A stretch of 64,000 bases of DNA from Polytrichum commune (Eukaryota; Streptophyta; Polytrichopsida; Polytrichales; Polytrichaceae). Location: NCBI GenBank assembly GCA_950295325.1, contig OX485805.1:15425501-15489500 (forward strand). Reading direction: 5' to 3'. How positions within the stretch are numbered: the stretch's first letter is position 1; every line of letters begins with the position of its first letter. Shown one piece after another: positions 4,828 to 35,148 of the stretch. The position numbers were made by a program, and so were the translations under genes. Under the pieces are notes generated by a model. The model ran no database searches and was not told the DNA's origin. It saw only the letters and a program-made list of their open reading frames with translations.

Positions 4828-5059
4828 ACCACAACAACAGGAATGCTACGATGTGAGCGGTGAGCGGTGAGCAGATCTCGTGAGCAGAAAATCAAAATTT
4901 AAAACTCCATTTAACTAAAGTTAGGACCCCTATGACCGTGGATTTAGGGCATATTTGAAGTTTAATTTTGGAATTATGAGGCCGATATTTATGGAGTACC
5001 TAATTTTTAGGACCAAAAGTTTCTTAAAATTACCAACAAGTCCCTATGGCCGTGGGAAA

Positions 5060-5345
5060 ATTCAGTGTGGTTGAGAAGATGGTGGACCTATGGGAAGAGG
5101 CCTCGGATCCGAGGCCTCTTAGTTGTGGGTAGCTTATGCTTGAAAATCAAAATGTTATGTATATTTGAGTTGACTACTTGTTTTTGCATTTGGCCATTTC
5201 TTGTATGTTCTAGCATGAGGAGGAGGTTTGGAAAGAGGCCTCGGATCCGAGGCCTCTTTCTTGTGGGTAGGATATGCTTGAGAAATCAAAATGTTAGGTG
5301 TATTTGGTTTGGCTACTTGTCTTTAGATTGTCTACTAGTTGACGA
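5060..5345. repeat. Two 138-bp tandem units, each centred on a long perfect palindrome
   Basis: Two diverged copies of a unit of about 138 bp share GTGGGTAG, ATGCTTGA, AATCAAAATGTTA and a long perfect palindrome. The palindromes lie at 5095-5120 (26 bp) and 5231-5260 (30 bp), both centred on CCTCGGATCCGAGG, and have stayed perfect although the flanking unit has diverged. They are subterminal to the left inverted repeat of the giant element, where transposase- or replication-protein sites would be expected. Confidence 0.8.
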
Positions 5346-5669
5346 CCACAAAAGTGTAGTGTTATTTGAGAACAACGACAAGATGCATTCAACAAGACAA
5401 TTGGAATATTAAAAACCACACCACACTTTATAAATCCAAACACTCAAACATTAACAAGTAACCAAGTGGTGTTAGAAAATATTTTGAACAATATAAAAAA
5501 AAACGAAGTCAAAAGTTAACTTAAATATGCAATTTCATATATGCAATCCCAAAAACTCCGAAAGTGATACACATACAATGAATTCCATGCGGAATGAGTG
5601 CACAAACTGAAAAACCAACGGAAGAAAAAACGGTATATTAGATAGTACACAGACATTCACATGAAGCTA

Positions 5670-7180
5670 TTACATCAGATCCGAATCACTGTGATCACCT
5701 GATGATGAAGACATTCTAGAATCAGTAATATCTGCATCAGAGGAGGCCTGACCATCAGATTCTAAAGCTTCTATATCCAAAAACTCTAAAACTCTTCCCG
5801 GACGATATTTAGATGTAAAAGTCTGATAAGAACCTCCAGCTAGTTGATTAGCAATATCATTTGCATATGTAGGAAGTTGCCAAGACTTTGGAGGGCTGGG
5901 ATAGAATTTAGGGTCACAAAAAAAAGGCCGGTGAATAGGATAGCCCAATTTATCGCATCTGCAAATGCCAATGGTACCATGTTCATAACTCAACTTTATA
6001 AGAAATGACAGCAAAAAACATAACACAGGTAAGAGAATTTGTGGACCTTACTCACTTAGTAAACCGAGATCTTTTCACAATCCTCTCTACGGGGATATCT
6101 TCACCCTCAGGATCCTCTAAACTGGTGACACGGTCTTCAAGAGTGACTTCAGAGGCTGCTCTAGAGATAATCAATGGAGCAAGTAAGGCCTCAAAAATAT
6201 CAACATCAGCCTCTAATGCCACAATGTGACGGTGCAAATTGCGGCATGCATGAATGGAAGATCCTGCAAATAAAGAAGTTGGAAAAAACTTAGTACAAAA
6301 ATAACTATGAATTTTGTAGACCAAAACAATATTAACGATTAACCAACTGAAATGGAAGATTACAAAGACATACCGGTCACTGCCGTGCAGTCTAGAATAA
6401 TATCCCATGGGGAGCTACATGCTTCAATTAGCATTTGCATTAGAAGCACGGATTTTTCACGAGGCCCTCGCCATGGTGTGGATCCATTAGTTAGCTGGTC
6501 CTCACGAGAGACCAAGTTCTGGAGAATATCATCCCGTGCAACATCCACCCCATAAGGATCCAATGCAGGGACAAGGCGAAATGAAAACTTCGATGCAGGT
6601 GACCCCGGCACGCTCCTGACTGCCAATGAAATACCGAACCTCATGGTCTACAATGTACCAGACATAAAGAACAACATTAGTTTACAAAGTAAACAACACA
6701 ACTGCATGAGTATAATACTTAGGTGGGTCTATACTCAGAACTACCTCAAGGATTAAATTGAAACTGAATGCGGTGATCAGCAAGAAGACATAAGGTTTAT
6801 CTTACAGTTGATGCTGGATTTAATGGGGATGTGAGATGAAGGCGGTTCATTCCCCACCACTCTTTCCGAATTGCAAAACCATACGATTTGCAATATCCAA
6901 GAATATTGGACTTCGTACTCATGCGAAAAGGGTGAAACAAAATAATTGCCCCGTCGTCGTGCAGATGTTCGTCGGCAAAGTCAAAGAGTGGTTGTAACCA
7001 CTCTTTCGATTCTTGATTCCAAGCGGGAATGGACGACGGTGGGTCTGATATGCCAGGAACAGGAAGACCTTCCGGTATATCTGCAAGAATCAAGTCCAAA
7101 CATGGATGGTCCTCCGGAGAACCCTTGTAGTGCCGGATTTTGTCTTTTGAGTGCTGCACCCAGCTCAACCCCCAGCCACC
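5670..7180 (-). CDS. ParB-linked beta-class DNA amino-methyltransferase, C-terminal exons
   Basis: Four exons join in phase on the minus strand: 7180-6806, 6647-6374, 6263-6056 and 5958-5670 (TAA), with GTAAGA, GTATGT and GTGAGT donors and TGTAG, TTGCAG and TTGCAG acceptors. The product resembles the N4/N6 amino-methyltransferase family (PF01555 type) with permuted motif order: the motif IV position comes first (LILADIPEG, 7085-7060), and motif I / AdoMet binding later (IILDCTAVTG joined to SSIHACRNL, then HIVALEAD), after the family-typical REKSVLLMQMLI. In active enzymes motif IV is D/N/S-P-P-Y/F/W; here it is A-D-I-P, so catalysis may be altered or lost. The tail is acidic and Ser-rich (SSSSGDHSDSD). 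Upstream exons lie at about 10001-10110 and 11050-15947. The first exon start at 7180 rests on a TAAG acceptor. Confidence 0.7.
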
Positions 7181-7503
7181 CTTAGACTCAAATCAAATTC
7201 AGTCACATATCAACTCCTAACCCCTAACCAGATTCCCTCAACCCACAGTCAAGCTCAAATTCATATCAAAATCACTAGCATATTAGACCCTAAACAGAGT
7301 GTGTCGGGGCCGAGAGACCTCTTACGAGTCCTACATTTCAATTTCAGAGTCTTAGAAAAATCAAAACTTTATACATCTACCCCCTACCAGAATCCCCTCT
7401 TCCCTCACCCACCCTTAGACTCAAATCATAATCAGTCAAATATCAACTCCTAACCCCCAAACCAGATTCCCTCAACCCACAGTCAAGCTCAAATTCATAT
7501 CAA
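7173..7503. repeat. Diverged direct duplication of about 100 bp
   Basis: Sequence at about 7180-7270 (cttagactcaaatca, atatcaactcctaaccc, agattccctcaacccacag, tcaagctcaaattcatatca) recurs at about 7410-7503 with few changes. It borders satellite array 1 and lies in the intron just upstream of the methyltransferase exon at 7180. Confidence 0.7.
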
Positions 7504-7504
7504 C

Positions 7505-9918
7505 ACTTTGAAGCCTCGGCTCTAAGTTCAGATTTCAAGTGCTCACTTTATATATGTCTACGTGGCCTCATTTCAGGTCAGAATCTAACAATATGAAGCC
7601 TCGGCTCTTAATTCATATTTGAAGTGCTCACTTTATATATGTCTACGTGGCCTCATTTCAGGTTAGAATCTAGCAATATGAAGCCTCGGCTCTAAATTCA
7701 TATTTCAAGTGCTCACTTTATATATGTCTACATGGCCTCATTTCAGGTTAGAATCTAACAATATGAAGCCTCGACTCTAAATTCATATTTCGGGTGCTCA
7801 CTTTATGTTATTTTAGCTGGCCTCATTTCAGGTTAGAATCTAACTCTTTGAAAGTGGCTTTCGGTTTAGATTTCAAGTTCTCACATTATGTGGCTGTCCA
7901 ATATATGGGTTTCGGGACCGAATCCTTCATTTTCAGGTCAAGAGGGTCACACCCTGAAGCCTCGGCTTCAAGGTTCAAATTAAAGGTGCTCACTTTATAT
8001 ATATCTAGTTGACCTCATTTCAGGTTAGAATCTAACAATTAGAGGCCTCGGCTCTAGGTTCAGATTAAAGGTGCTCACTTTATGTTGTTTTAGTTGGCCT
8101 CATTTCAGGTTAGAATCTAAGTCTTTGAAAGTGGCCTATAGGCTTAGATATCAGGTTCTCACTTTATGTGGGTGTCCAATATATGGGTTTCGGGACCGAA
8201 ACCTTCCTTTTGAGGTCTAGAGGGTCACACCTTGAAGCCTTGGCTTCAAGGTTCAAATTACAGGTGCTTACTTTATATATATCTAGTTGGCCTCATTTCA
8301 GGTTATAATCTAAAGCTTTGAAGCCGAGGCTCTAGGTTCAGATTTCAAGTGCTCTCACTTTATGTTGTTCTAGTTGGCCTCATTTCAGGTTAGAATATAA
8401 CACTTTGAAGCCTCGGCTCTACTTTGAGATTTCAGGTTCTCGCTTTATACATGTAGAGTTGGCCTCATTTCAGGTTAGAATCTAACAATTAGAGGCCTCG
8501 GCTCTAGGTTCAGATTTAGGGTGCTCACTTTACGTTGTTTTAGTTGGCCTTATTTCAGGTTAGAATCTAGAATTTGAAGGTTGGCTATAGGCTAAGATTT
8601 CAGGTTCTCACTCTATGTTGTTTTAGTTGGCCTCATTTGAGGTTAGAATCTAAGTCTTTGAAAGTGGCCTATAGGCTTAGATATGAGGTTCTCACATTAT
8701 GTGGCTGTCCAATATATGGGTTTCGGGACCGAAACCTTCATTTTGAGGTCAAGAGGGTCACATTTTGAAGCCTCGGCTTCAAGCTTCAAATTACAGAAGC
8801 TCACTTTATATATATGTAGTTAGCCTCATTTCAGGTTATAATCTAACAATTGGAAGCCTCAGCTCTAAGCTCATATATCGGGTGCTCACTTTATATAAGT
8901 CTAGTTGGCCACATTTCAGATCATAATCAACCAATTTGAAGCCTCGGCTCTAGGTTCAGATTTCAAGTGCTCATTTTATATATGTCTAGTTGGCCACATT
9001 TCAGGTTAGAATCAAACAATTAGAGGCCTCGGCTCTAGGTTCAGATTTAATGTGCTCACTTTATATAAGTCTAGTTGGCCACATTTCAGGTCAGAATCAA
9101 CCAATTTGAAGCCTCGGCTCTAGGTTCAGATTTCAAGTGCTCATTTTATATATGTCTAGTTGGCCACATTTCAGGTGAGAATCAAACAATTAGAGGCCTC
9201 GGCTCTAGGTTCAGATTTAATGTGCTCACTTTATATAAGTCTAGTTGGCCACATCTCAGGTCAGAATCAACCAATTTGAAGCCTCGGCTCTAGGTTCAGA
9301 TTTCAAGTGCTCATTTTATATATGTCTAGTTGGTCACATTTCAGGTTAGAATCTAACAATTAGAGGCCTCGGCTCTAGGTTCAGATTAAAGGTGCTCACT
9401 TTATGTTGATTTAGTTGGCCTCATTTCAGGTTAGAATCTAAGTCTTTGAAAGTGGCCTATAGGCTTAGATACGAGGTTCTCACATTATGTGGCTGTCCAA
9501 TATATGGGTTTCGGGACCGAAACCTTCATTTTGAGGTCAAGAGGGTCACATTTTGAAGCCTCGGCTTCAAGCTTCAAATTACAGGAGCTCACTTTATATA
9601 TATGTAGTTGGCCTCATTTCAGGTTATAATCTAACAATTTGAAGCCTCGGTTCTATGTTGAGGTTTCGGGTGCTCACTTTATATAAATCTAGTTGGCCTC
9701 ATTTCAGGTTAGAATCTAACACTTTGAAGCCGAGGCTTCAAGGTTCAAATTACATGTGCTCGCTTTATATATCTAGTTTGCCTCATTTCTGGTTATAATC
9801 TAACAATTTGAAGCCTCTGCTCTAAGTTCATATATCGGGTGCTCACTTTATATAAGTCTAGTCGGCCTCATTTCAGGTTAGAATCAAACATTTTGAAGTC
9901 TCGGTTCTAGGTTGAGCA
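7505..9918 (+). repeat. Satellite array 1 (plus orientation)
   Basis: This is a head-to-tail array of diverged monomers. The common monomer is about 85 bp (for example 8941-9025) with the words GCCTCGGCTCTAGGTTCAGA, AGTGCTCACTTTATATAT and CTCATTTCAGGTTAGAATCT. A second type carries GGCCTATAGGCTTAGAT, CCAATATATGG and the near-palindrome GGTTTCGGGACCGAAACC. It fills the intron between the methyltransferase exons at 7180 and 10001. Short frames inside it are satellite translations, not genes. The same monomers form arrays 2 and 3 on the opposite strand. Confidence 0.95.
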
Positions 9919-10000: not shown

Positions 10001-10110
10001 CTTGAGCATGAATGTTTTCAAGTCGTTGTAGGAAGGGGTGAATTCATCCGTGTCACCGCCAAGAACGTCGTCCAATGAGGAGTTGAGAATGATGTCGCGC
10101 ACCTCTCCAT
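10001..10110 (-). CDS. Probable internal exon of the ParB/methyltransferase gene
   Basis: The minus-strand frame VRDIILNSSLDDVLGGDTD..LKTFMLK ends with AAG followed by GTACTG at 10001/10000, a plausible donor in phase 0, which matches the phase-0 start of the next exon at 7180 (GGWGLSWVQH). The acidic, non-repetitive composition fits coding sequence. The upstream boundary is uncertain: an AG at the end of CATGGAG near 10110 would serve as acceptor. The frame further upstream runs into the hairpin-rich segment and is not supported as coding. Confidence 0.45.
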
Positions 10111-10259
10111 GAGGAGTGCCCGAAACACCATGGGCACAAGGGGGACCCCGGAGTGACACCCGGGACTTGTGGCGCCGTTGGTGAGAGGGCCCAAGTGATC
10201 CTAGTGTGGGTGAGGGCCCCGGGCGTTGGGAACGCCTCCCACCCACGAAGACTAGGAGG

Positions 10260-10940
10260 CACAAGGGTAAGGCCATGAGTTATGCGTAGCTCATGGCGTG
10301 GTGATTCTAGAAAGCTCAAGAACACCTCAATCGGAGGTGTGAGCTAGGAGTTATGGCCATTTGAGTGGGGCGCTGTCCCGGGACAGCGCCCTGGTACAGC
10401 AGTGCCTGGGAGTGATTCCCGGGACTGCCAAGGTTCAAACAGGCATAACTTCCTCAAGACTTGCTCAAATGGAGCAAGTGAGGAGTCCATTGGTATCTAC
10501 GTGAAGCGTAGATGAACATGGAGTGGTTGGTTGTTATGATCAGACATCATACAAGGAAGTTATGATGGTCTGAAGCTGCTGGGGGGGGTTCTAGGCCCAG
10601 CAGCTAAGGGAAAATGTCCACTTGGCCCCAACTCTTGGTAGAGAGACAAGAGGTTGGTTGACGGTGGGGTAGGGGCCCCGCGTGAAGTCCTAGAGGCTTA
10701 TATGGGTGAGGTGGTGTGGCCTCACCCACCCGAGGCCGAACGGCAAGGCCTCCATGGGCTTTGGCCCATTGTGAGGCCATAGTTGCCTAGTATGGTTCGG
10801 GTTGTTGTAGTGTTGCTCCGGCAATGCGATGATCAACATGGGATTGGACTTCCATGGATGGAAGTCCACATCTAGGAATGGGTTACCGATTAAGGGGTGA
10901 GTCCCGAAAGCAAAGTAGGAGGGTTGGTTCCCTCCTATGA
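10260..10940. repeat. Dense cluster of perfect and near-perfect hairpins
   Basis: At least ten inverted repeats occur in 680 bp, more GC-rich than the surroundings. Arms: 10272-10279/10290-10297; 10322-10328/10334-10340; a 22-bp perfect palindrome at 10369-10390 centred on CCCGGG; 10459-10466/10472-10479; 10495-10501/10507-10513; 10574-10583/10596-10605 (10 bp); 10704-10711/10720-10727; 10754-10759/10764-10769; 10845-10853/10860-10868; 10916-10923/10930-10937. In addition 10444-10453 pairs with 10555-10564. The segment lies between methyltransferase exons. No terminal repeats or coding capacity were found, so its class is unknown. Confidence 0.8.
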
Positions 10941-11049
10941 ACTATAAGGTCCGGGGTAGGAGGAGCTAATCATTAGCATGGCGGAATGCGAATGGTTAGC
11001 GCTCGTAACCTTTGCTAGAATTGAAAATTGGCAAGATTGTCAAGGGGGG

Positions 11050-12659
11050 CTAGCAAGGGTTGCGACAAATGAGCTCTTCAATATGGATGTCGAGCTCCTC
11101 CCCAGATGTCATAATAGGTATTTGACTCAACTGCTCGTAGGACGAGTCGCGTTTTGTGCCTCTAGAAAATGTTGGAGCATGAGAACCAGATTCATATGTG
11201 GGACTTGGAGCAATCGGACTCTTACCTTGTGGCTCCGGAGGGGGGTTCATCTTATTTTTCCCCTTTCTAGTGGACTTATCCAACGAATTCTGCACCTTCT
11301 CCCGCTCTTTTTGGTCAGCTCTCTCCTCAGCTTCCTTGACCCTCAGCGCTTTCTTTCGGTCCTCTTCAATGCGTCGTTTCATTGCCTTTGCCCTCTCATT
11401 TTCATCTTCTATGGCCTGTAAGTCAACCATTTCAATTCCAGACTCACCTACAGCCTCCCTTGATTTCCTGAGCTCAGTCTCAAAAGAAGGAGTGAAACTT
11501 AAAGCGCAATCAAGATACCAGGCACCGCCGGTAAGGTGAGAACTTGTCCACGTGCGTTCTTGAAGAGCCGAGAACATGCACGCTGAGTTTGATCTATCAA
11601 GCCATGTGTTCAAGAATACAGGAAGGTCATCTTTGGAAATAGCTCCTTTCGCCAAAAGCTCGTCCTTAAAGTACCTGTGTTACGAAATAGCACATAACAT
11701 TAACATCAACAACTTCCGAACTAGCAAAACAAAGAATATGGACTGAACCAATTACTGAAATTAATGAAAAGTCCTTAAAGATTAGAGACGCACCGAAAAA
11801 GAACTCGGCGGACAACTAGGTCAGCTCCGTTAAATCCAACAAACTCGTCACCTTTTTTGAAGGAATCTTGTCCTCTGAAGTAGGTGCTGAAAGCATGGTC
11901 CCATAACTTCATGCGACAGTCTTCGATATACGCTGGCAATAACATGGGCTCACTGGCAATACTCATGTTGATAGGAACTCGGTCTTGACGCATGGTCTCG
12001 TAAAAAATGAGACTGGCCTGTTCTGAGATCTGTTAAGCAAGAAAATAAGCATCAGCTAGACCAATTTCTAAATCAAGTCGATGAAATAAAGAATGATAGT
12101 TGTGTAAATTACATGCCAAAGATGAATTCAATGAACTGAAAATTGAATAGAAGCAGTGGACTTACTCCTGCCCAGAAACAAGCCTTTGCCAAGAAATTTG
12201 CCAATTTATCTTCGTTGATAGGCTTGGGAGGTAGCTTTCGGGCCTCACGAGTGGAAGCAGATGAATTAAAGTACTCTAGCCATTTTATTTTCATTGCCGG
12301 AGACGCCCTTGAAGTTGCAATGAGCTGCAACTTCTCTAAGTTGAGGTCCGGGGAAAGTGAGTTTAACGTGTAATGTCGCTCAATCTGAAAGACAGAGCTC
12401 TTGTGAGTTCCTCAGTCAAACGGATAAGCTTAAAAGATTGATATGGACAAAGGATCAGGGTGCGTACCTCACGTAGCCAACCGTCGGTAAGCTCCGGGTT
12501 CGCCACAACAACCAATTTTCCCATTTTCATGCGAAGTGCCATAGATCTCTTCTCAACTGCGGCTTTCATCGCAGCCGCCTTGTCAGCAGGGGAGACTTCT
12601 CCTTCTGATTGCTCCACAAGCTGACGTGCACCCTCGTCGGCAGCGAGACCCAGCTCATG
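11050..12659 (-). CDS. ParB/methyltransferase gene, middle exons (coiled-coil linker)
   Basis: Four minus-strand exons keep one frame: 12659-12468, 12384-12166, 12029-11794 and 11674-11050, with donors GTACGC, GTAAGT and GTGCGT and acceptors GTGCAG, TTTCAG, AACAG and ACACAG. The first exon follows in phase from 15032. I recognise no catalytic domain. The product includes WLEYFNSSAST, LANFLAKACFWAG and AYIEDCRMKLWDHAFS, then a charged helical region rich in E/K/R (ENERAKAMKRRIEEDRKKAL), probably a coiled coil, and a basic Pro-rich stretch (STRKGKNKMNPPP) that could be a nuclear localisation signal. A stop occurs at 11050 after ICRNPC. Either the protein ends here, or an unannotated donor just before it leads to the exon at about 10110. 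I could not resolve this, so the join to the methyltransferase exons is an inference. Confidence 0.6.
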
Positions 12660-12774
12660 CTGCACAAAGAGAAAACAAGAACGAGGAAACCAAATTTTGA
12701 AATGAAAATGAAATTAATAAGTTGGACAAGATGTTTTGGACAAAAGAACTGAACTAGAGCTAGACAAATGAGAG

Positions 12775-14962
12775 CACCCGAAATCTGAACCTAGAGCCGA
12801 GGCTTCACATTGTTAGAATCTAACCTGAAATGAGGCCATCAAATCCAAAACATTAAGTGAGACCTGAAATCTGAATTTATATCCAGGGCTTCAATGTCTT
12901 TGATTTTAACCTGAAATGTGGCCAACTAGACTTATATAAAGTCAGCACCCGAAATCTCAAACTAGAGCCGAGGCTTCAAAGTGTTAGATTCTAACCTGAA
13001 ATGAGGCCAACTACATATATATAAAGTGAGCACTTGTAATTCGAACCTTGAAGCCGAGGCTTCAAAATGTGACCCTCTTGACCTCAAAATGAAGGTTTCG
13101 GTCCCGAAACCCATATATTGGACAGCCACATAATGTGAGAACCTCATATCTAAGCTTATAGGCCACTTTCAAAGACTTAGATTCTAACCTGAAATGAAGC
13201 TAACTAAACCAACATAAAGTGAGCATGTGAAAAATCAAACTAGAGCCGAGGCTTCAAAGTGTTAGATTCTAACCTGAAATGAGGCCATCCAAACCAAAAT
13301 AAAGTGAGCACCCGAATTCTCATACTAGAGCCTAGGCTTCAAAATGTTAGATTCTAACTTGAAATGTGGCAACTAGACTTATATAAAGTGAGCACCTGAA
13401 ATCTCAAACTAGAGCGGAGGCTTCAAAGTGTCAGTTTCTAAGTTCAAATGAGGCCACTTAGAGCTAGAGTCTAACCTGAAATGAGGCCAACTAAAACAAC
13501 ATAAAGTGTTTACCTTAAATCTGAACCTAGAGCCGAGGCCTCTTATTGTTAGATTCTAACCTGAAATGAGGCCAACTAGATAAATATAAAGTGAGCACCT
13601 GTAATGTGAAACTTGAAGCCGAGGCTTCAAAATGTGACCTTCTAGACCTCCAAAGGAAGGTTTCGGTCCCGAAACCCATATATTGGACACCCACATAAAA
13701 TGAGACCCTGAAATCTAAGCCTATAGGCCACTTTCAAAGATTTACATTCTAACCTGAAATGAAGCTAATTAAACCAACATAAAGTGAGCATGTGAAAAAT
13801 CAAACTAGAGCCGAAGGTTCAAAGTGTTAGATTCTAACCTGAAAAGAGGCCAAACACACATATATAAAGTGAGCACCCGAAATATCAAACTAGAGCCGAG
13901 GCTTCAAAGTGTTAGATTATAACTTGAAATGAGGCCAACTAGATATATATAAAGTGAGCACCTTTAATTGAACCTTGAAGCCGGGGCTTCAGGGTGTGAC
14001 CCTCTAGACCTCAAAAGGAAGGTTTCGGTCTCGAAACCCATATATTGGACAACCACATAATGTGAGAACCTGATATCTAAGCTTATAGGCCACTTTCAAA
14101 GACTTAGATTCTAACTTGAAATGAGGCCAACTAAAACAACTTAAAGTGAGCACCCGAATTCTCATATTACAGTCTAGGCTTCAAAGTGTTAGATTCTAAC
14201 CTGAAATGAGGCCAAGTAGACTTATATAAAGTGAGCACCTGAAATCTCAAACAAGAGGCGAGGCTTCAAAGTGTTAGATTCTAACCTGAAATGAGGCCAT
14301 CCAAACCAACATAAAGTGAGCACCCGAATTCTCATACTAGAGCCTAGGCTTCAAAATGTTAGATTCTAACTTGAAATGTGGCAACTAGACTTACATAAAG
14401 TGAGCACCTGAAATCTCAAACTAGACCGGAGGCTTCAAAGTGCCAGTTTCTAAGTTCAAATGAGGCCACTTAGAGCTAGAGTCTAACCTGAAATGAGGCC
14501 AACTAAAACAACATAAAGTGTTTACCTTAAATCTGAACTTAGAGCCGAGGCCTCTTATTGTTAGATTCTAATCTGAAATGAGGCCAACTAGATAAATATA
14601 AAGTGAGCACCTGTAATGTGAAACTTGAAGCCGAGGCTTCAAAATGTGACCTTCTAGACCTCAAAAGGAAGGTTTCGGTCCCAAAACCCATATATTGGAC
14701 ACCCACATAAAATGAGACCCTGAAATCTAAGCCTATAGGCCACTTTCAAAGATTTACATTCTAACATGAAATGAAGGTAACTAAACCAACATAAAGTGAG
14801 CATGTGAAAAATCAAACTAGAGCCGAGGCTTCAAAGTGTTAGATTCTAACCTGAAATGAGGCTACTTAGGAACCTTCTAATTGGGGTTCGGTCCCGAATC
14901 CCATATATTGGATATCCACAAAATGTGAGAACCTGAAATCTTAACCTATAGCCCACCATCAA
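12775..14962 (-). repeat. Satellite array 2 (minus orientation)
   Basis: This has the same monomers as array 1 in reverse complement, for example CTAGAGCCGAGGCTTCAAA, CTAACCTGAAATGAGGCC, ATAAAGTGAGCACC and GGTTTCGGTCCCGAAACC followed by CATATATTGGAC. Some monomers carry the inverted repeat TTGAAGCC-GA-GGCTTCAA. A longer-range duplication of about 1 kb is visible: the segment from about 13254 resembles that from about 14266. The array fills the intron between the exons ending at 15032 and starting at 12659. Confidence 0.95.
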
Positions 14963-21020: not shown

Positions 21021-21030
21021 CATCCCCCTT

Positions 21031-25600: not shown

Positions 25601-25760
25601 GATCCTGAAGGCTAAAAGCAAAACATCTACGGTACGAGCGAATAAATGCTCGTACCTTACGTGCCTCAGCACCAGTAAGACGAGGGCCTAATTCAAGTGG
25701 CCAATCATCAAACTCTGTAGTCTCCCTCTCCACCAAAGGAGAACTACCTGATGCTGGCAC
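22626..25760 (-). CDS. pol: Pol: reverse transcriptase, RNase H, DDE integrase and PHD finger
   Basis: This is an open frame of 1044 codons, in the same frame as the upstream Gag-methyltransferase frame and separated from it only by a UAG, so it is probably made by readthrough; the GTG at 25760 is not a convincing independent start. Domains: Ty3-type reverse transcriptase with the catalytic YIDD at residues 231-234; RNase H with LHTDWSSLG (Asp380); integrase zinc finger (His621, His626, Cys656, Cys659); catalytic core D688, D748, E783 with the classic 35-residue spacing; and a C-terminal PHD finger (Cys986, Cys989, Cys1001, Cys1004, His1009, Cys1012, Cys1027, Cys1030). Many plant Ty3 elements have a chromodomain after the integrase; here a PHD finger takes that place and could direct insertion by reading histone H3 tails. 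No internal stop was seen. Confidence 0.93.
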   Translation of the reverse strand: MPASGSSPLVERETTEFDDWPLELGPRLTGAEARKVRAFIRSYRRCFAFSLQDLEGYKGKPIHIQLEDDHPIFRRPYRLSVSERIGVQARCRELLAAGLIELSNGEYACATVMPSKKDIFGNWTEKRMCGDYRPVNRKTKSDRYPMPIPEELFDAIGFSRVFSTLDLRSGYHQLPLLTGDRVKTAFWGVDQDGKDQLYHWKFLPFGLKNAPAEFQRVMDQVLSGLPFARCYIDDVIIFSTTPQEHVRHLQAVFERLQRWGLRLHHGKCKFFHDRLAYLGHMIVPGGLGVQQAKVDALQKIPAPVDVPRLRAFLGLANYYRRFVKNFSLIAKPLTILTSKDQPWSWGREQQQAFETLKQKLGTAPVLRRPDVSKSFQLHTDWSSLGLGAVLTQKDDVGREYVVAYASRSNNTAEANYSSYEGEALAAVWAIAHFRPYLYGQHFTLVTDHQPLRWLMESDKLTGKLARWALLLQEYDFEVVHRAGITNMDADGLSRNPSPSDEDLTGARWHGDCDREAVPGWHAAAYLTLFSGSSVEIPIQGSDDETDRPQAIADIWEDLPVLHKLQHGTFPLSISAMEKDRIGHRITRFRWENGLLFRLWPDGTRRIVPRPDQRASLVQQVHEELGHFGIRRTHSMLRGQYWWTGMYQQVAAYVGRCEVCDRVRSSFNTLSPQLQPLPIMGLGYRWSLDFAGPLVVTPRGAKYVLVMVEHFSKWIELVALPQNSAELAAAAFLDRVLARFGAPAEVLTDQGREFLGAFEELCTKALIDHRTTSRDHPEADGLAERVVQTTKRGLRKYGLLRGSHRDWDLMLPWIAMGYRFSRQASLASYSPYQLLYGREPILPSSIREKLAPVVNLDDPDLWAECLQEWAQFFQRAMPMAMENLSIAQHRDTLRYARIRSGAYRPQLRRFRQRDYVYLQREAPTTLDVRAGRTILRVKEVLPSGLLLLEGKDGRECREHSKNCAPCHLPIEGTVHPELAVVPEGLPCFVCGDKKGAATMLLCDQCQRGWHMACLRPPLTSLPSGQWSCPRCRGSSVLGASTNRTQ

Positions 25761-25778
25761 AGACTCTAATTGCTAATG
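25761..25778 (-). promoter_or_regulatory. Leaky UAG stop in CAA-UUA context
   Basis: Minus-strand codons read CAT TAG CAA TTA GAG TCT. The stop (25775-25773) is followed by CAA TTA, which fits the CARYYA rule of the tobamovirus-type readthrough signal exactly. Frames before and after are the same and both are long and intact. A small proportion of readthrough would set the Gag to Pol ratio, as in gammaretroviruses, instead of a frameshift. Confidence 0.85.
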
Positions 25779-28700
25779 AGAGGAGGGAGCATTAACCATG
25801 CCCCCAGTCTCAGTGCTAGCACTAGAGTCTGGCATTTCTTCATCACCACCAATATGTGATGATGAAGCCACCACCAGAGGCGAAGAAGCCGAAGCAGTGT
25901 AAAAATGTTGAGCTCGAAGCTCCTCCATTACATGCTGCTCGAATTGAGAAGTTTGTTCGGCTTCTCCAACCATGGCATGAATTCCCTCCTCAATGGATGT
26001 GGACCGTTGTGCCCCCTGACCAGAGTTCTCTGCCCCCAGAGGCAACCACTGGTCACCACAATGTCTTTGCCATGAAAGACATAAACCAACAGTCCACACC
26101 ATAGTATGAAGATCCATGGCTTGGCCCAATACGAAGCGTCGTTGGCCTTCAGAAAGGCCAGGAGCTGCGGTGGTGCCAGTGCGAAATCCCATTGCACGCT
26201 CCCGTTCATCTGCCAATGGTTCGGTGTGGGTTTTGGTGTGAGCATCCCACACCATACCTGGCCCCTGATCGCGGAAAGCAAATGACTGTGGAAACGTCAT
26301 GAATGTGGGAAAAGCCCGCCGTGGTGCCCCCACTTTGTTGACCAATGCCAATGGGGGTAAATCATCTCGGACAACCGGCAAAGAAGTCCGGTTTGGATCC
26401 AAGATGTTGTCCACCTTTTGATCAAAAGGTGGAGGCACTACAGAAAATGCTGCAGCTAATGTAGATGATGGTGTGAGGTTGGTCCAAATCCACCGAGGCC
26501 GGTGGGCATAAGAACCAATGCTCGCAGCATCTACCAAAATTGGATCTCCAAGGTGTTGACGAACATAATGATCGCCTTCCACCACCTTGGCCCGGGAGTC
26601 TCCGAACATAGGTACATTCTCGAAAATATATGCTGGAGGGGAAAATTGGTGGGAATACCACCACTGCATGAGACGAATGAGGTCCCAAAATAGACTAGAC
26701 CTGGTATCCTCTAGTCCTCCGCCTGCTCCAGCACGTGAATGGCCCTGGCATGGCCATCCCGCAATCACCATATCCACTGGACCCAAATGTCGTAAATCGG
26801 CCTCACTGATGAGTGTGACATCACGAGGGAGACGTGAAAAACACCCACGAATGGCAGTTGGAGGTAACTGCTGGGGGTACAATACCATCAATTGGTGAAG
26901 ATGATGACGAGCCACACGGGTGGACACTTGAGAGTTGTCCACATAGACATATCGTCTAACCGTGAGGCCAGCCTCCAATACGGCCGCTAAGCCTGTGCCG
27001 ATGCCCCCAAACAGTTCCACCAAAGTAATTCCCGCGTCTGGCGGCTGCCATAAAATGGGATGTGCCAATGCCGAGAGGACACCCGGTATGACCGGTGTCC
27101 TAGGAGTGAGAGAGTGAACAATATTCTCGCACCTCCGAAATAGCTCGGCGGAATCACGCCAAGGAGGAAGGGGATCCTTGGGATGGCGCACCAATGCACC
27201 CTTAGGTGCCATATCCCGTGGATCGTCTGTACTCCCCATGAACGCCAATGACTCATCCAACAATGCGGAACCATAAGGCAATGTGTCCACCATAGCACCA
27301 CATCCAAAAACCATAGATAATGGTGCTATGGTCGCGGCTGCCGCGAAAGCCACGGGAATAAGTTCCCTGCGGCCATCCCCAACCGACCAACCTGGTCGGA
27401 TCCACGCCTCTTCAGTCCAGTTGTCCAAACCAAAACCAAGAGGATAAAGTGCTTGCTGACCAACTAAAATGTCATAGTTGGTCGCATCCGTCACCGCACA
27501 CCTAAGAAGAAGAGGTGCGGGTGAATCTCCAGGCTTCACTCGGAAGCTAAGCTGTAATGGCTCCCGAGTATATTCCGTGGCCCGCTCCACGTGACCAATG
27601 GATGTGACAATGGTGAATGGACAGGGAGCCAAATCCTCGGCCGTCAACCCCAACTCTTGGGCAAGCCTCTTGCCGATCATAACTGGCTGTGCCCCTGAAT
27701 CCATCATCACACAACGGGGAGAAACCTGAGTAACATTGCTCCCAGTGCGACTGACCACCAAAATGCCGGTATCATTCACCATCCGTACAACGCCAGGTCG
27801 AATGCCTTGACGCTCGCGAGCAGGTCGAGCAGCTACATCGGATAGATAAGCTGCGCCTGCAGAGGCTGGTGAATGATAAGATGTGGTTGGCTCCTGGCCA
27901 TCCAAGGTGTGTGCGTCAAAAGACGCAATGGCCTCCTTCGCAAGCCTCGCTCGCCGTTTGGCGGCTTCCTCAGGATCCTCCGTGGTAGGAAGCTCTGCGG
28001 TTGCTTGAGCCACAGTAAGAGAAGACGGGGTTGCCTTCCCCTCCAATATCCTACCTGCTAGGTAAAAAACCTTAGCTGGTTGGATATCGGATGACGACCA
28101 ATCCATTGCTGTGAACAAAGGCGTGTGCAACACTTTGGATGCCAAAGTGTGCACCACGTCGGTCGACGGACTCGAAGCCTCCAAGCTCGAATTGCGAACA
28201 CTGACAGATTGGGCAGCATCAGCCAATCCAAAAGACAATGGAAGGCGTGCCTGACCAATCTGATCCGCGGGACTATTGTGCCGAGCTCGTAAGCTGTCCA
28301 CAGACTCTCCTGTGGTCGAAGGCGTGGCTCGTGACACGGTTTGAGCACGTGTCATAGCGGCAGAACTCACCACCTCGCCCGAGGCTCCGAACATATAGTA
28401 ATCCGGAGTGGAAGAACTAGCCTGAGCTGCGGAAGAAGACGGTGAGGCCAAAATTTGGCCGGATGACGCCAAGCTTTTGAACCTCTCCTCCATGGCTCCA
28501 ATCTTCGCCTCCAACGTCTTCTCCCGATCGGAAGAAGGACGTTTCTCGGGATGGAGAGCGAAGCAATTCTCCACCGCGTGATTGTTCCGCCCACAATGAG
28601 AACACTTCAACTGTTTGGGTAACTGATTACCCGTCCCCTTCGTCGAGCCCTTAGCGGGAACAAATGGTTTCCGCTTCGGAGTAGTGACGTTCTGGGCTTG

Positions 28701-29855
28701 CCTATGCTTCGAAGGACAATCCTTCTTAGCATGGCCCGCCTGTCCACAAGACCAACAATGCAAGATCTTGTCCACCTCTGCTTCTGCCAACCCCGCAGCC
28801 GCAACTGGAACCTTCCGGGATTTGCTAGAATCCACTAGCATGGACACCAAGTCAGTGGCGTCGTGCTGACACAAGGCACGATCACACTGCTCAACAATGG
28901 TGAAAGCTTCCGCAAGTGTCGCTCGGCCACCATGATCCATGATGATCCTGGGTAAAGCTAAGTCAATGAGGCGTTTGTCAAGCTTTGACAAAAACACCTT
29001 TACCAACTGGCTCTCGGCGAAAACACCTCCAGATTCCCTAGCAAACCTCGCCAACCTCGTGTACATGGTACGAGGCGTGTCATCTTTCTCCCGTCGAAAG
29101 TCTTGGATACGCTGCATTTGATCGCGGCGGAAGCCTCCATATTCCGCCTCCAAATGGAGTTGGAATTCTTGTAGAGGATCAAAACCCGGCGGAGCTCCTA
29201 AAGAAGCTAATGCCGTCTGGGTAGCCTGGGCATAACGTGACAGTGGAAGAATGGGGCTCGAGGTACTCGCCGTTGCGGGAGCTTGGCCCTGAGCCGTGGG
29301 ATTGATAGGAAAAGCTCCCTCCACCTCCACTTCGTATACTCCCTCCTGTACCTCCGTCTTAACCTCAGGGACGGCCATGAAACTGGAAGCTGCGCCTTCC
29401 TTCAATGCAGATACCAACTCAACCCGAGTCTCCCAGTACCGCTCGACCTGGCGCAGTTCCATCCAATGAGTGTCCGTCCACTGCTCATAAGTTTGGAGAG
29501 CTTCATGCTCCAAATGTTGAGGCAAAAGCTCGAACGCATACCAATCGTTAAAATTGGTATTGCGTTGGCGTTTCTCTCGCATCCACGTACGAAACCGGAT
29601 TTTCCAGTCTTGCAGAGAAATGGTCCCTGCTCGACCGGAAAACCGGTCCCGTATCCCTCCCCTAGTCTCCTCCTCCATATCGTCAAAGGTTCCCACCCAC
29701 AGGACGTGAGACCGAGTGATAGTCCCCCACGCCGAAGTAGGCTGAAAAGCCTCGTTGGGTGCTACCACTGGTTCCACGTCCGAGAGGTCCGAGGGATGAC
29801 CTTCCGATGCTCCTGGGGACGGAGAACGATAATGTTGAGTACGAGTTGTAACCAT
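25773..29855 (-). CDS. gag-pro: Gag - retropepsin - C5-cytosine DNA methyltransferase polyprotein
   Basis: An intact frame of 1360 codons starts at ATG 29855. The N-terminal Gag capsid-like region runs to about residue 340, followed by two CCHC zinc knuckles (CWSCGQAGHAKKDC at 367-380, CSHCGRNNHAVENC at 418-431). A retropepsin motif MMDSGAQPVMIG has its catalytic Asp at 719. Residues about 943-1258 form a C5-cytosine methyltransferase: motif I VELFGGIG (949-953 core), motif IV AGWPCQGHS with catalytic Cys1036, motif VI FENV (Glu1079), motif VIII HRPRW (Arg1119/Arg1121) and motif X LGQAMDL (about 1243-1248). Motifs VIII-X and the short target-recognition region recall DNMT3-type enzymes, while PCQGHS recalls DNMT1/Dcm types. 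The order Gag-protease-methyltransferase before RT is unusual. All catalytic residues are present, so activity is possible. Confidence 0.92.
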   Translation of the reverse strand: MVTTRTQHYRSPSPGASEGHPSDLSDVEPVVAPNEAFQPTSAWGTITRSHVLWVGTFDDMEEETRGGIRDRFSGRAGTISLQDWKIRFRTWMREKRQRNTNFNDWYAFELLPQHLEHEALQTYEQWTDTHWMELRQVERYWETRVELVSALKEGAASSFMAVPEVKTEVQEGVYEVEVEGAFPINPTAQGQAPATASTSSPILPLSRYAQATQTALASLGAPPGFDPLQEFQLHLEAEYGGFRRDQMQRIQDFRREKDDTPRTMYTRLARFARESGGVFAESQLVKVFLSKLDKRLIDLALPRIIMDHGGRATLAEAFTIVEQCDRALCQHDATDLVSMLVDSSKSRKVPVAAAGLAEAEVDKILHCWSCGQAGHAKKDCPSKHRQAQNVTTPKRKPFVPAKGSTKGTGNQLPKQLKCSHCGRNNHAVENCFALHPEKRPSSDREKTLEAKIGAMEERFKSLASSGQILASPSSSAAQASSSTPDYYMFGASGEVVSSAAMTRAQTVSRATPSTTGESVDSLRARHNSPADQIGQARLPLSFGLADAAQSVSVRNSSLEASSPSTDVVHTLASKVLHTPLFTAMDWSSSDIQPAKVFYLAGRILEGKATPSSLTVAQATAELPTTEDPEEAAKRRARLAKEAIASFDAHTLDGQEPTTSYHSPASAGAAYLSDVAARPARERQGIRPGVVRMVNDTGILVVSRTGSNVTQVSPRCVMMDSGAQPVMIGKRLAQELGLTAEDLAPCPFTIVTSIGHVERATEYTREPLQLSFRVKPGDSPAPLLLRCAVTDATNYDILVGQQALYPLGFGLDNWTEEAWIRPGWSVGDGRRELIPVAFAAAATIAPLSMVFGCGAMVDTLPYGSALLDESLAFMGSTDDPRDMAPKGALVRHPKDPLPPWRDSAELFRRCENIVHSLTPRTPVIPGVLSALAHPILWQPPDAGITLVELFGGIGTGLAAVLEAGLTVRRYVYVDNSQVSTRVARHHLHQLMVLYPQQLPPTAIRGCFSRLPRDVTLISEADLRHLGPVDMVIAGWPCQGHSRAGAGGGLEDTRSSLFWDLIRLMQWWYSHQFSPPAYIFENVPMFGDSRAKVVEGDHYVRQHLGDPILVDAASIGSYAHRPRWIWTNLTPSSTLAAAFSVVPPPFDQKVDNILDPNRTSLPVVRDDLPPLALVNKVGAPRRAFPTFMTFPQSFAFRDQGPGMVWDAHTKTHTEPLADERERAMGFRTGTTAAPGLSEGQRRFVLGQAMDLHTMVWTVGLCLSWQRHCGDQWLPLGAENSGQGAQRSTSIEEGIHAMVGEAEQTSQFEQHVMEELRAQHFYTASASSPLVVASSSHIGGDEEMPDSSASTETGGMVNAPSSH

Positions 29856-31348
29856 AAACCCACAATGGGATGGTCACCGAATCAACAACCCAAATGAATT
29901 AGTATTCAGTTACAAAGAGAAAAAGGGTCAAAGGCAACCTGCACCTGCAACCACCACCAAAACTTATGGTCTGCTGGTCATTAACCCAGCCTCACCACAA
30001 GTGAAAACAAGCACCGCCCACTTGGTGCACAAACAAAGGTCCCGTCGGTCATTAATCCGACCTCACCTCCACAGTACCCTATCACAATCTAGGACTACAC
30101 AAAATGGGGCAATGTTGGAATACTCCAACACAACAGCCCGCCACGGGGGAAGGTACCACAACAAAATACAAGGAACAATGCAAGAACAGCACTGGATCCT
30201 CTTCCCCAAAACAACACTTAAGCATAAATCGAAAACGACCGCAACCAACTGGCACCCGCCTGCAGTCGGTGGTCAAAACGAAAAGCCCCTGTTGCTTTGG
30301 AAAAGGAAATGCACATATCCTATTCTTCCATTACAACCCAAAATTCAATGCATAAGGAAACTTGTGGAACCTATGTTCATGAACACAATTCGACCTCAAC
30401 ATAGGTCGAACGGTGATTCCACATGCCACAACATTCTTGTGGCAATCCCTTGGCAATCCTTAAACAATCCCCCAAATGAAATTACCTTAATATTTCATAA
30501 GAAGTTTGGGGTTCATCTTGTGTTCTTGATTAATGAAAATAAGAAATTAACCTCTTAGAGAGAAAAGAAAAATAAGAAGTTGAAAGAAAACATTAATTAA
30601 TTAATTAAAATAAAAAAAATCCGGTTTAAATTATTAAATTAAATTAAATTAAATTAAGTCCGGTTTTAATTCATTAACGCATTGATTAATTAAAACAAAA
30701 ACAAAAACAAAAACAAAAAAAACAAAATACACAACCGGTTGGACTTGCAAGCACTTGGAAATCAACTGATTACGCCCACAAACCTCTCCAATCTCTGCTG
30801 GAATGGCAGCCTGCAGACTGACGCAGCCAGCCGCCGCAAAATGTCGTAGCCAGACGCCGCAGACTGTCGCAGCCAGACGCCACAGACTGCCGCCGCGGTC
30901 TGACGCAGACTGCCGCCGCCAGACGCCACGATCTGACGCACACTGCCGCCGCTAGCCGCCGCGGTTCTGCACACCAGGGGCCAGCAACAGAGGGAGGCTG
31001 GCCGCCTCCCTCTCTCCTTTTTTTTTTTTTTGTTATTTGTTTTTTTTTTAATCACACTTTCTCCACTTAGTGTGAAGAATCCGTTCCAAAGCACAATGGC
31101 GTGAATGCTTGCTTGCAAGCGACCAAATGGTACAAAATTTCGTGAAAAATTCAATGAATTCTCATCACAATTCAAGTGATGTGTAAACTTCACAAGCACA
31201 CCTCTTTCTTCTTGTTGCTCCGCAAATCCGCGATGTTGTCATTCCAGAACTTCACAACTTCATCAATTCTTGTCTTCACACCCTCCCTTGCGCGTTACAT
31301 CTCAAGAATGAAGAAGAAAACATCAAAGATGAAGCATTCTTGCCAAGT
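29856..31348 (-). other. Retrotransposon 5' leader, non-coding
   Basis: These 1.5 kb between alpha and the Gag start contain no convincing gene. Landmarks: a GC-rich imperfect minisatellite at about 30815-30965 built of CAGACGCCRCAGACTG-like words; a T-run at about 31018-31050; a TTAAA-rich stretch at 30600-30660; and a short duplication near 29975-30065 (CTGGTCATTAACCCAGCCTC / TCGGTCATTAATCCGACCTC). The first 15 nt of the leader in element sense (31348-31334) are complementary to 31558-31544 inside alpha. Confidence 0.7.
31334..31348 (-). promoter_or_regulatory. Candidate self-complementary primer-binding site
   Basis: In element sense the leader starts ACTTGGCAAGAATGC, flush with the end of alpha. 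The exact 15-nt complement occurs inside the same alpha block at 31544-31558. Elements of the Tf1/sushi group prime reverse transcription with the folded 5' end of their own mRNA, annealed to a site just behind the 5' LTR. The position here fits that scheme, and no tRNA-complementary site was seen. Confidence 0.5.
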
Positions 31349-31681
31349 GGGAAGGAAGAGAGTAGAACACTCATAATAGCTCTAAATCTCTTCAAATGCA
31401 CACAAATTAGTCAAGCTATCTCTCACTCCACCAAGGGAGAATCCAAGAGTGTAAGTAGGGGAAGAAGAACTCAAGATTTATTGCAAAATCATGCAATCTA
31501 CACCTCACACAAGCTCTCTCCACACACTAACTCACAAGACTTGACTTGGCAAGAATGCCAAGCCAAGGAGGAGGCTCCTCACTTAGGAGCCTTCCTCTCC
31601 ACATCTAGATTCATCCATCCAAATCTAGATGGATGAAACCCAACGGATATGGTGCGGCTTTCGACGCCGCATACCGTGACA
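31349..31681 (-). repeat. Right terminus: alpha block
   Basis: This 333-bp block appears identical to 21901-22233. It is the 5' end of the element on the minus strand and abuts the transposase coding sequence through the TCTC duplication. Unlike a normal LTR it is not followed by the beta block. Confidence 0.93.
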
Positions 31682-34555
31682 TCTCGGCTTGACCTTCCGG
31701 TTTTCATCTTGTGTTGGCCATCTCTGCTGTCATAACGAGGGATGTGATTATCTCAACCGCCCCAATCGAGCCACTGACGTCAACGAGACCGAATGGGAAG
31801 GCTGTACCCCCTCACCCTTCACCGCAGATGCTGATCCCCCAGCTGGGTCATCTCTCGTTTGTAAGGTCTATAAGACACCACCCTATTGTCTTGATACTTG
31901 CCAGGCTAAGATGTACTATGTTCTTGGCAGAGGTGACATGACTCGTGCATGCATCCATATGGGTCATCACCATCACCCCGTTTCGCAAGGTGTCTGTAGA
32001 GAGTCTAAGGTCGAAATTCATGATCTCATTGGTAGAGAGGTTGAGCGGACTCCCACCGCCACCAACTCTGCCATTGCATTGGCTGCAAGTAAAGAGTTCC
32101 TGGCCAAGTATCTTCTACGCACGGGATCTGATCCCAATAAAGTTATGGACCTCGAGTCCATGAAGTTTGTCATGGACAGGTACCAACACCTCAGCACCCC
32201 GAGTATTCGAAACACTGTCACTTCCTTCAAGCGCATTGGCCGAGGGGGGATCATTGACAGCATCACCGGACTTAGAGGTCATAGCAGTTGGCCCTATGTG
32301 CAAGAAAATAAATTCCCAGGCCAAGGAAAGCTGTTGGAGAAAGTCTACGTCTTCAATATGTCCGAGGTGGGCCTTGGGTCTGGAGTGGACCTTGTCAAGA
32401 GAATGCAACCACACGGTGATTTGCAGGATGCTTGGGTCATGTTTGACCATGTCAAGCGTGTCAAGGGGTGGACGACCATGGCTTGCCATGTCTATGACTC
32501 GGCCTACTGCCGGGTTATGACTATTGCAGTTTGTGATATACAGTCTGAGGATGTCGCGGCGCAGAGCCTTCTATGGCATGGGCTCAATGAAGTTATGCTC
32601 AAACATGGCATTGCTAAAGTTAACTTCAAAGGGTTCATGGCGGACAGTGCACAAGCCAATTGGAATGCAGTTAGGATTATCTATGGCAACGGTGATCCCA
32701 AGGTTCCTATGGAGTCTCGCGAGAGGACATGTCTATTGCATTGGACAGTGTCTATGGAGCGCCACACCGCCACCCATATCAAGCCCGACCTCCAACAGCA
32801 ACACAAGTTGTTATGCAAGCAGTACAAGGATGCCAAGACTCCCGAGCAGTCCGAGTCCCGTTATCTTGCCATCCGGGCTTGGTGGCTATCCTCTGGAGCT
32901 GCATCCGAGGAAGGAATCAAAGACCTTGATACATGGCTTGCATTCTGGCACTTTCGTTACCGTCAATGGGGTGGTTTCATGCAACTAGTGAGTACCCACC
33001 CACAGTGTGTGTTTCGCTTTTTGGTCCGAATTTTTTTTTGGATTTTGTTTTGTTTTTGTGGGTTTTTTTGTTTGTGGGTGTCAGTTTAGGATTTTAACCT
33101 GTTTTTGTACAAAGCGTTCTCACTACATTTTCTTGATTTCTCTCAGAATTTCACAGATTCTGAGTTGGCAGAGATGCCACTTGCAACCTCTCCGAGACAG
33201 TCCATAACAAATGGCTTCAACAGTCTGGAAACCGTAGCTCTGATCTGTATGTTGCGACCGTCGATGATTTTGTGAGGGCGTTCATGCAATGTACGAACTA
33301 CTACGCCTACTTGAAGGGTGATCACTCTGGTATTGGCCCAGGAAAGGAAGAACTCCGCCTTCGTGCTGCACAACGATCCGGTGACGCCAAGAGAATTGTT
33401 GCAACACTCGAGCACATGCCTGGAGCAGAGCATTGGTGCACCCGCAAACCCCAACTCGAAGGAGAGGAGGTCTTTGGCACCACCAAGCGCAAACTTGATA
33501 TGCCCCCTGGTTCTGATCATGATTCACATAGACCCGACAAGGTTAGCTTCTCTCATCCACGAGTGAGCACTAGGTCAACCAAGGCACGTACGGATTCCTC
33601 CACACCATCAGACCTGCCCCTAGCACAATCACCCGAGAAATCGATTCCACAACGGGTCACCCACGTCAATAACATTCAGGAGACCCACTGCGATGTCTCC
33701 AAGTGGCACATTTCTAGACTGCCCAAGACTTCCGCCAAGGCCTGCTTCGCCATGCAAGCTCGCACAAAGACCAAATGCACCCAGAAGATCGTTCGGCATG
33801 GTAAAAGTACTCCAGCTCCTACGTACACCGGCTACATGCGCGACTACAAGAAGAACAAGGAATTCTTGACACAATTCTTCTTCTGCAACGACGACATTGA
33901 AAGATGTGTCAAAGGCACCAGGAGGAAGTGGGTGCAGCACCGTCCGGATGTCCCGGACGTCTGGCCTGTCCTCACTGGGACAAACCTCACTCTCCAGGAG
34001 GTTCTGGCCCTTGAAGAAGGGGGATTCCAACTTCAGCAGCGTCAAGATGTGTCACCCAGAAGACTCTTCGGCGACTCCTCCAATGTTGCCTCATCCATGG
34101 CCGAACTCCCTACCCCGGCCCAAGCCGATCAATACCCTACGCTGAGGTTTGGAAAGAAGATCCGACGCAGTAACAACGGACCATGCGTCCAACAACGCAA
34201 CAAGTGGGAGTCAGCCCTCAACGTCGACGGACAAATCACCTCCGTCACAATGATACCTCACCCAGGGATCGGCTGCATCATTCTCTTCCAGTCCCGAAAG
34301 AAGGCTAAGGTTGAAGAGTACCGTATCACTATCAGCACCTTCCCGTCGTGCACCTGCCCGGATTTCGTGGAGATGTCAGCAAGAGCACTTGGAAAGCGGC
34401 GCACTTGGGTGAACTGCAAGCACTTGTACTTCATCTTCCGTGTGACTTGCAACTTGGATCAATACAAAGACACTTTCATCCATGCTCCGAGTCTTAGTTT
34501 CAATGAAGTGAAGCACCTCCTCGAAAGTGGCATCATGAAGCATGTGGGACCTTAG
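31682..34555 (+). pseudogene. MULE-type transposase gene, 3' part (DDE core and SWIM zinc finger)
   Basis: The frame resumes in phase after the retroelement with TFRFSSCVGHLCC, then NEGCDYLNR, a Cys-rich zinc-binding element found near the N-terminus of MULE-like transposases. The core shows a first acidic residue in WVMFDHVKR (Asp codon at 32445), a second in FMADSAQANWNAV (32643), and a C..H motif in CLLHWTVSMERH. A T-rich intron probably separates QWGGFMQL (about 32985) from the frame containing YVATVDDFVRAF (from about 33168); exact sites are uncertain (possible GTGAGT or GTACCC donor, CAGAG acceptor). The C-terminus has a SWIM zinc finger, CTC..CKH (34349-34423), typical of Mutator-family transposases, and ends in MKHVGP with TAG at 34555. 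The gene points to the right end of the giant element and is its likely transposase, now split by the retroelement. Confidence 0.75.
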
Positions 34556-35148
34556 CGTGGATACCTATAGGAGCTAGGCTGCCCCCCTTATTTATAATTT
34601 GTCGCTAAGTATTATTGCGTTGAGTATACTATAGTATGAGTGCACGTTTTCCGAAAATATCGCTGATATTTCAGACCTATCATTATCTACATGATGTGAA
34701 TTGTAATCGTTTTTAAATATCTATAAAGGTTTCTAAATATTTATGGGTCTCTCCTTCCAACAGTAGTTTTAGATGTTATTGAATGGTACGAGTTTTGCTA
34801 CTTTGCTTGAATGCTTGAATGCTTTAATTTTATGACTTAGAATTTTCTCTTACGTTGTGACCATAGCCTATGATTAAGCGGCTCTCACCATAATATGGAC
34901 AGTCAAAAGTTCCCTGGTTTAAGTAAATCATGTGAATTAGTCTCTCTGAAAGGCACCCTAAAACCAAGTCTCTGTCCTTAAATCCCTCAAAATTTCCACG
35001 GAAATAGGTCCATCGTTTTTACTAAAAAAAGAGGTCCCACGATTTTTCTATTTATGGATTCTAAATTTGGAAATTTTATTACTATAATTGGAAAGCGTTG
35101 ACTTTTTTCTGCTCACCGCTCACACGGTAGCGTCGTTGACCACAACAA

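Follow-up and report, generated by a model that had tools for sequence, protein, structure and literature searches.

The window analysed here, a 64,000-nt stretch of the moss Polytrichum commune (assembly GCA_950295325.1, OX485805.1:15,425,501-15,489,500; C3:15425501-15489500 in the 408-Mb, 64-contig genome G000), harbors a DNA transposon of the Mutator-like element (MULE) type, in which a transposase gene reads outward to the right and a gene derived from a DNA methyltransferase, hereafter the cargo gene, reads outward to the left (Table 1). The stop of the transposase at 34555 leaves 583 bp to the right end, and the cargo gene stops 832 bp from the left end. As a preliminary description of the locus had claimed, exact 10-bp direct repeats lie flush with 28-bp inverted ends that match at 22 of 28 positions. 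An exhaustive scan, satellites excluded, turned up 2,886 pairs in which the same 10-mer recurs at a distance of 1 kb or more; by its inverted ends this pair ranked best and the next reached 16/28, while the maximum for inverted ends in 20 block-shuffled windows was 18/28. The sequence of the duplication occurs a third time in the window, at 30155, and tandem GTGAGCGG units are present at the element ends.

The search for further copies bounded by both ends, which had been suggested as a check, was run across this genome and did not refute the claim; all genome counts are lower bounds, with the top candidates alone scored. The right-hand 200 bp gave 40 scored places (76 candidates), as did the left-hand 200 bp (152 candidates). 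Nine of the ten copies in which both ends were read carry perfect 10-bp target duplications at the same termini, each distinct: ACCACAACAA in the window copy, CGCTCACGTG in L017/L018, CCTAAACAAC in L019/L020, ACAGTGTCGG in L021/L022, AGCTTGATTG in L023/L024, TTTAACACAA in L030, CACCCAGGAT in L035/L036, GTCCCACCGC in L037/L038 and CATGATAGAC in L039/L040. For the remaining copy, L013/L014, no target duplication was found at the ends. Fifteen copies combine a left end with a methyltransferase exon and a scored right end; their end-to-end span ranges from 9.7 to 56.8 kb and is 19-22 kb in five. In sister copies, window position 21794 is joined directly to 31681, and 10092 to 11068, each junction showing a 5-bp overlap; because these copies lack both intervening segments (9,886 and 975 bp), we regard these as later insertions. 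The end coordinates given earlier were correct, but the 30-kb size is inflated by a nested 9.9-kb Gypsy retrotransposon and the 975-bp insert: the element proper measures about 19.4 kb, and roughly one third of the span is foreign.

Three subfamilies of the element were distinguished. Subfamily A includes the window copy, subfamily C is about 76% identical to it in the methyltransferase exon, and subfamily B is a mosaic, with an A-like methyltransferase exon (97%), front exons that are about 75% identical and closer to C, and C-like ends. The mosaic subfamily-B elements L025, L026, L027 and L028 have a patchwork of similarities that points to exchange among lineages of the element, by recombination or by gene conversion. 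At L030 (C1:23603501-23613400), an element of about 7.7 kb within its TTTAACACAA duplication places a C-type methyltransferase part beside an A-type transposase, apparently an inter-subfamily recombinant that moved.

The assignment to the MULEs made in the preliminary description holds. Target duplications of 10 bp, in nine of ten copies, fall within the 8-11 bp that define the group, the terminal inverted repeats are common to the copies, with 40 scored places per end, and the transposase core has an RNase H-type fold of the IS256/MULE type, closest to that of ISCth4, a bacterial IS256-family protein with 9% identity to the transposase of the moss element. A CxC...CxH motif lies toward the C-terminus and a cysteine-rich region toward the front, perhaps counterparts of the SWIM and N-terminal WRKY/GCM-like zinc fingers of MULE transposases. 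The family is evidently a mobile, multi-copy MULE-type DNA transposon.

Ten coding exons of the cargo gene were resolved by exon anchoring, running from 15947 to 5670 on the minus strand. In alignments of the window with eight other copies from the three subfamilies, GT/AG signals are intact at almost all junctions within the aligned stretches; one splice acceptor is altered in L019/L020, and some exon ends lie beyond the alignments. Where the first resolved exon has its TGA, the other subfamily-A copies covering the position, three in number, have a glycine codon, and exon 6, split in the window by the 975-bp insertion (possibly a solo long terminal repeat, LTR), is uninterrupted in a sister copy. 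Both genes of the window copy are broken, the transposase being interrupted by the nested Gypsy element and out of frame, and the cargo gene carrying the nonsense codon and the insert; elsewhere, the transposase of L022 reads open and the cargo exons of L027 are without stops. Satellite arrays occupy two introns of the cargo gene as well as the stretch that separates it from the transposase gene, and they vary in length and sequence between element copies.

Table 1. Features of the transposon and its nested insertions, in window coordinates.
Feature	Position	Strand	Remark
Left target-site duplication ACCACAACAA	4828..4837	.	Different 10-mers at the same place in 8 other copies
Left terminal inverted repeat CAGGAATGCTACGATGTGAGCGGTGAGC	4838..4865	+	Abuts the duplication directly
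Cargo last exon	5670..5958	-	Stop codon 5672-5670
Cargo exon 9	6056..6263	-	
Cargo exon 8	6374..6647	-	S-adenosylmethionine-binding motif I region, ILDCTAVT
Cargo exon 7	6806..7153	-	Start of methyltransferase domain; motif IV equivalent DPPS
Satellite arrays in cargo-gene intron	7502..9913	.	85-bp and related units
Cargo exon 6	10001..11674	-	11674-11068 plus 10092-10001, split by 975-bp insert
Nested insertion, 975 bp	10093..11067	.	Missing from sister copies; 5-bp overlap at junction
Cargo exon 5	11794..12029	-	
Cargo exon 4	12166..12384	-	
Cargo exon 3	12468..12659	-	
Satellite arrays in cargo-gene intron	12772..14468	.	Inverted relative to the arrays at 7502..9913
Cargo exon 2	15032..15194	-	
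Cargo exon with GNHRRQAW motif, first of ten resolved	15304..15947	-	In-frame TGA 15845-15843 in window copy
Satellite arrays between the genes	16094..20993	.	214-bp unit repeated 13.8 times (97% matches); also units of 297-299 bp and 52 bp
Transposase, 5' part of first coding exon	21017..21794	+	Frame broken in window copy
Nested Ty3/Gypsy-type LTR retrotransposon with Dnmt3-like domain	21795..31680	-	5-bp duplication ATCTC
Transposase, remainder of first coding exon	31681..32987	+	Cysteine-rich region, RNase H core
Transposase second exon	33147..34555	+	SWIM-like CxC...CxH motif at end
Right terminal inverted repeat CAACGACGCTACCGTGTGAGCGGTGAGC	35111..35138	-	Given as reverse complement of 35111-35138
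Right target-site duplication ACCACAACAA	35139..35148	.	

Judging by homology, the ancestor of the C-terminal part of the cargo protein was a beta-class (N6/N4) DNA amino-methyltransferase. PF01555 matches 55 residues around motif I at 28.0 bits, against a cut-off of 26.7, DpnA matches across the same part (1.3e-6), phage genes align with up to 85% of the query, and one phage enzyme covers 77% of the methyltransferase region. In motif I, for which the beta-class pattern is DPFxGSG, LDCTAATGSS aligns with LDFTMGSGST; the D, G and S positions are kept and the GSG loop is replaced by ATG. Motif IV, located by the same alignment, reads DPPL in one of 18 copies and DPPS, NPPS or NPPT in the other 17; the D/N-P-P portion of the beta-class catalytic motif [DNS]PP[YFW] is retained, and the Y, F or W occurs in none. 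For this reason we file the gene as methyltransferase-derived and not as an active enzyme. The absence of the catalytic aromatic residue is no product of recent decay, since subfamilies A, B and C all share it. The amino-methyltransferase of the preliminary description therefore stands as a matter of ancestry, while its activity is doubtful.

The ParB label given to the front part of the same protein fared less well. The motif on which it was based exists and is well kept: across 37 aligned sequences of DGNHRRQAW, the D, G, N, H, Q and W are invariant and the first R and the A are conserved in at least 90%, and its G-x-R/H-R-x-x-A pattern may be a ParB box. Beyond the motif, no match to ParB was found for the front part in Pfam, NCBIfam or PDB, and hhalign against four ParB proteins returned a probability of 0.1%. 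The structure model of the region is poor (mean predicted local distance difference test score, pLDDT, 51.5), and DUF1015 matches 5 of 37 relatives, at 0.061 at best. No Pfam family matches the front two thirds of the protein above its cut-off, and one cargo exon has 668 relatives among public proteins.

The association of the two genes is a property of the family. The methyltransferase exon gave 150 scored matches in the genome (1,134 candidates), and a correctly oriented copy lies within 60 kb of 22 of the 40 right ends, compared with a random mean of 0.4 and a maximum of 3 in 200 draws. Likewise, 22 of 40 left ends have the exon 1,823-2,339 bp inside, at 1,932-1,983 bp in 20 of these; 21 of the 40 left ends have a right end within 60 kb, and 15 have both the right end and the exon. 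A scored transposase lies within 6 kb of 33 of the 40 right ends. Scored transposase matches numbered 92 (2,694 candidates), comprising 65 that are at least 90% identical and 27 at 54-67%. A divergently read methyltransferase within 60 kb accompanies 29 of the 65 close ones (random mean 0.9 in 500 draws; 3 in the mirror arrangement) and 10 of the 27 more distant ones (random mean 0.34; mirror 1), so that the partner gene is in place for 39 of 92. The exon type in these ten divergent pairs is C in seven, B in two and A in one. The divergent locus L050/L051 has both genes in the same plan between motifs resembling terminal inverted repeats (TIRs), with the first two exons missing; no target duplication was found there. 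At two further places (G000 C5:48758673-48774130 and C6:39008352-39022570), both ends and a scored transposase lie within 14-15 kb with no scored methyltransferase near the left end, and these are perhaps copies without the cargo gene.

Comparison of the subfamilies indicates that the cargo gene is under purifying selection. Between A and C, the ratio of nonsynonymous to synonymous divergence (dN/dS) is 0.14-0.15 over the 344-346 codons of the methyltransferase part, where dS is 1.3-1.4; the first two cargo exons give 0.08-0.09, and the middle gives 0.06-0.08 (dS saturated, above 2). The ratio is 0.11-0.23 between two C copies and 0.27-0.29 between B and C fronts. Among near-identical copies within A or B the ratio is 0.29-1.33, from few changes, as expected for decay after insertion. 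Low values between subfamilies together with relaxed values among near-identical copies imply that the constraint acts on the replicating lineage.

Taken together, the sequence comparisons make it very probable that the methyltransferase-derived gene is a resident, selected cargo of the element, and not a captured fragment. This much of the original claim is borne out by the constant place inside the left end, the linkage in divergent subfamilies, the largely kept splice sites and the purifying selection, with the qualification that in some copies the gene is incomplete or missing. Gene pieces are frequently captured by plant MULEs according to excerpts of PMC13317346, and a Pack-MULE holding a host gene or fragment by chance would have no long-term selection; a multi-exon gene with dN/dS of 0.06-0.15 between subfamilies, constant place and orientation in divergent elements, and at least 150 genomic matches leaves this explanation very improbable. 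That chance repeats merely flank ordinary neighboring genes is refuted by the other copies, the end scan and the linkage counts, and we consider it negligible. It is these copies that decide the matter: when satellites are included, inverted satellite copies yield pairs of up to 25/28, so that the window taken by itself is no more than suggestive. Several observations do weigh against a resident cargo in a MULE-type element. The transposase (1,169 residues) has no Pfam match even at an E-value of 10, and PF00872 appears in 2 of 58 aligned transposase first exons, weakly (best 0.034). No scored methyltransferase lies near 18 of 40 left ends or 36 of 65 close transposases, which is weak evidence because 150 of 1,134 candidates were scored, yet some copies truly lack parts: the first exons are missing in four of the eight copies with a window-type right end that were read through to the methyltransferase exon (the window copy, L013/L014, L015/L016, L017/L018, L019/L020, L021/L022, L023/L024 and L030). 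No transposase was found in the stretches covered for six subfamily-B and -C copies, and the two genes have also been reshuffled, since the methyltransferase exon is of A or B type in three of the ten divergent pairs.

For a resident cargo, we propose a working model in which the transposase would cut and paste the element at its GTGAGCGG-repeat ends and the cargo protein would act in trans on element DNA, reading the repeated ends and the intronic satellite arrays. It may thereby sustain expression or mobility of the element, much as VANC does in the VANDALs of Arabidopsis. In excerpts of PMC5735166, VANC proteins bind motifs spread as tandem repeats in VANDAL introns and upstream regions and remove DNA methylation from the element. 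By this analogy, a VANC-like anti-silencing factor is the leading candidate for the cargo protein, at a little short of an even chance, and action by binding is likelier than by methylating because the catalytic aromatic residue is gone. An active amino-methyltransferase, whose N6-adenine or N4-cytosine self-mark would favor transcription, block silencing or license transposition, would account for the PF01555 score above its cut-off, the phage enzyme whose alignment spans 77% of that domain region, the kept D, G and S of motif I and D/N-P-P of motif IV, and the strong constraint. It is unlikely all the same, given that motif IV never ends in Y, F or W in the 18 copies (S or T in 17, L in one), that the GSG loop is ATG, and that the catalytic loss is shared by all three subfamilies. 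We judge equally doubtful a transposition helper, that is, an integration or end-binding cofactor like the second open reading frames (ORFs) of MuDR or Mutyl. Comparable second ORFs occur in MULEs, as described in excerpts of PMC6446971, and the element ends carry repeated GTGAGCGG motifs; three copies with perfect duplications (L017/L018, L023/L024 and L030) nevertheless are without either the first exons or the entire front part, and for this reason the cargo seems dispensable in cis, unless it was lost after insertion, though it may act in trans.

The moss element shares its design with the VANDAL elements, including Hiun, which excerpts of PMC5735166 describe as MULEs with a transposase, further genes and, in introns and elsewhere outside the coding sequence, tandem repeats that vary. 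The likeness to VANC is one of design only, and none of these excerpts mentions a methyltransferase ancestry for VANC. VANDALs are called non-TIR in part of PMC13317346, and a table in PMC6446971 lists TIRs of 46-174 bp for them, with duplications either of 9 bp or not indicated, whereas the moss element has short TIRs and 10-bp duplications. Other MULEs likewise carry a resident extra gene, namely the second ORF of MuDR, mutB of Mutyl, SET in Phytophthora, and Ulp1/Kaonashi, none of them given as a DNA methyltransferase in the portions of the literature covered; the word methyltransferase is absent from the main texts of PMC6446971 and PMC13317346, and in the parts of the open-license literature consulted we found no MULE or other transposon with a ParB or methyltransferase gene of this sort. 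DIRS retrotransposons encode a Dam-like relative of adenine methyltransferases (excerpts of PMC5890265); unlike them, the moss element is a DNA transposon, and its methyltransferase is of the permuted beta class with an altered motif IV.

The window also contains an open frame (1182-2213, plus strand) that, as judged by eye, resembles nuclear-encoded plastid ribosomal protein L15. The nested Gypsy element encodes, in order, gag, a zinc knuckle, a protease, a C5 DNA methylase, an in-frame stop, reverse transcriptase, RNase H, integrase and a PHD finger. Its methylase matches PF00145 (8.3e-12), the nearest solved structure being DNMT3A (1.3e-10). At its ends, a 107-bp unit (21794-21900) is repeated at 22235-22341 and a 300-bp stretch (21901-22200) is repeated with 100% identity at 31349-31648, a layout that looks as if a terminal repeat had been rotated. 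The element resembles KnitGypsy-Dnmt3 of the alga Klebsormidium, and excerpts of PMC5890265 describe Gypsy, long interspersed nuclear (LINE) and DIRS elements of Symbiodinium and Klebsormidium with element-borne C5 cytosine methyltransferases of the same kind. These C5 enzymes are unrelated to the amino-methyltransferase class of the MULE cargo, and one locus therefore holds two unrelated element-borne methyltransferase genes.

More broadly, and as a somewhat more tentative suggestion than the VANC-like role itself, a widespread plant MULE lineage may long have carried an amino-methyltransferase of phage or bacterial type and remodelled it into an element-specific protein that would read DNA, or write a mark on bases other than cytosine, at the coevolving repeat arrays of the element itself and so evade host silencing by cytosine methylation. 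Descendants of amino-methyltransferases in DNA transposons would join the DNA-modification genes of eukaryotic mobile elements, and the cargo would be a second, independent MULE-encoded protein that likely counters host silencing. Because the front two thirds of the cargo match no Pfam family above its cut-off, many "hypothetical proteins" would gain meaning, and the abundance of the element, the selection on its cargo, and the open copies L022 (transposase) and L027 (cargo) make binding, methylation marks and mobility directly testable.

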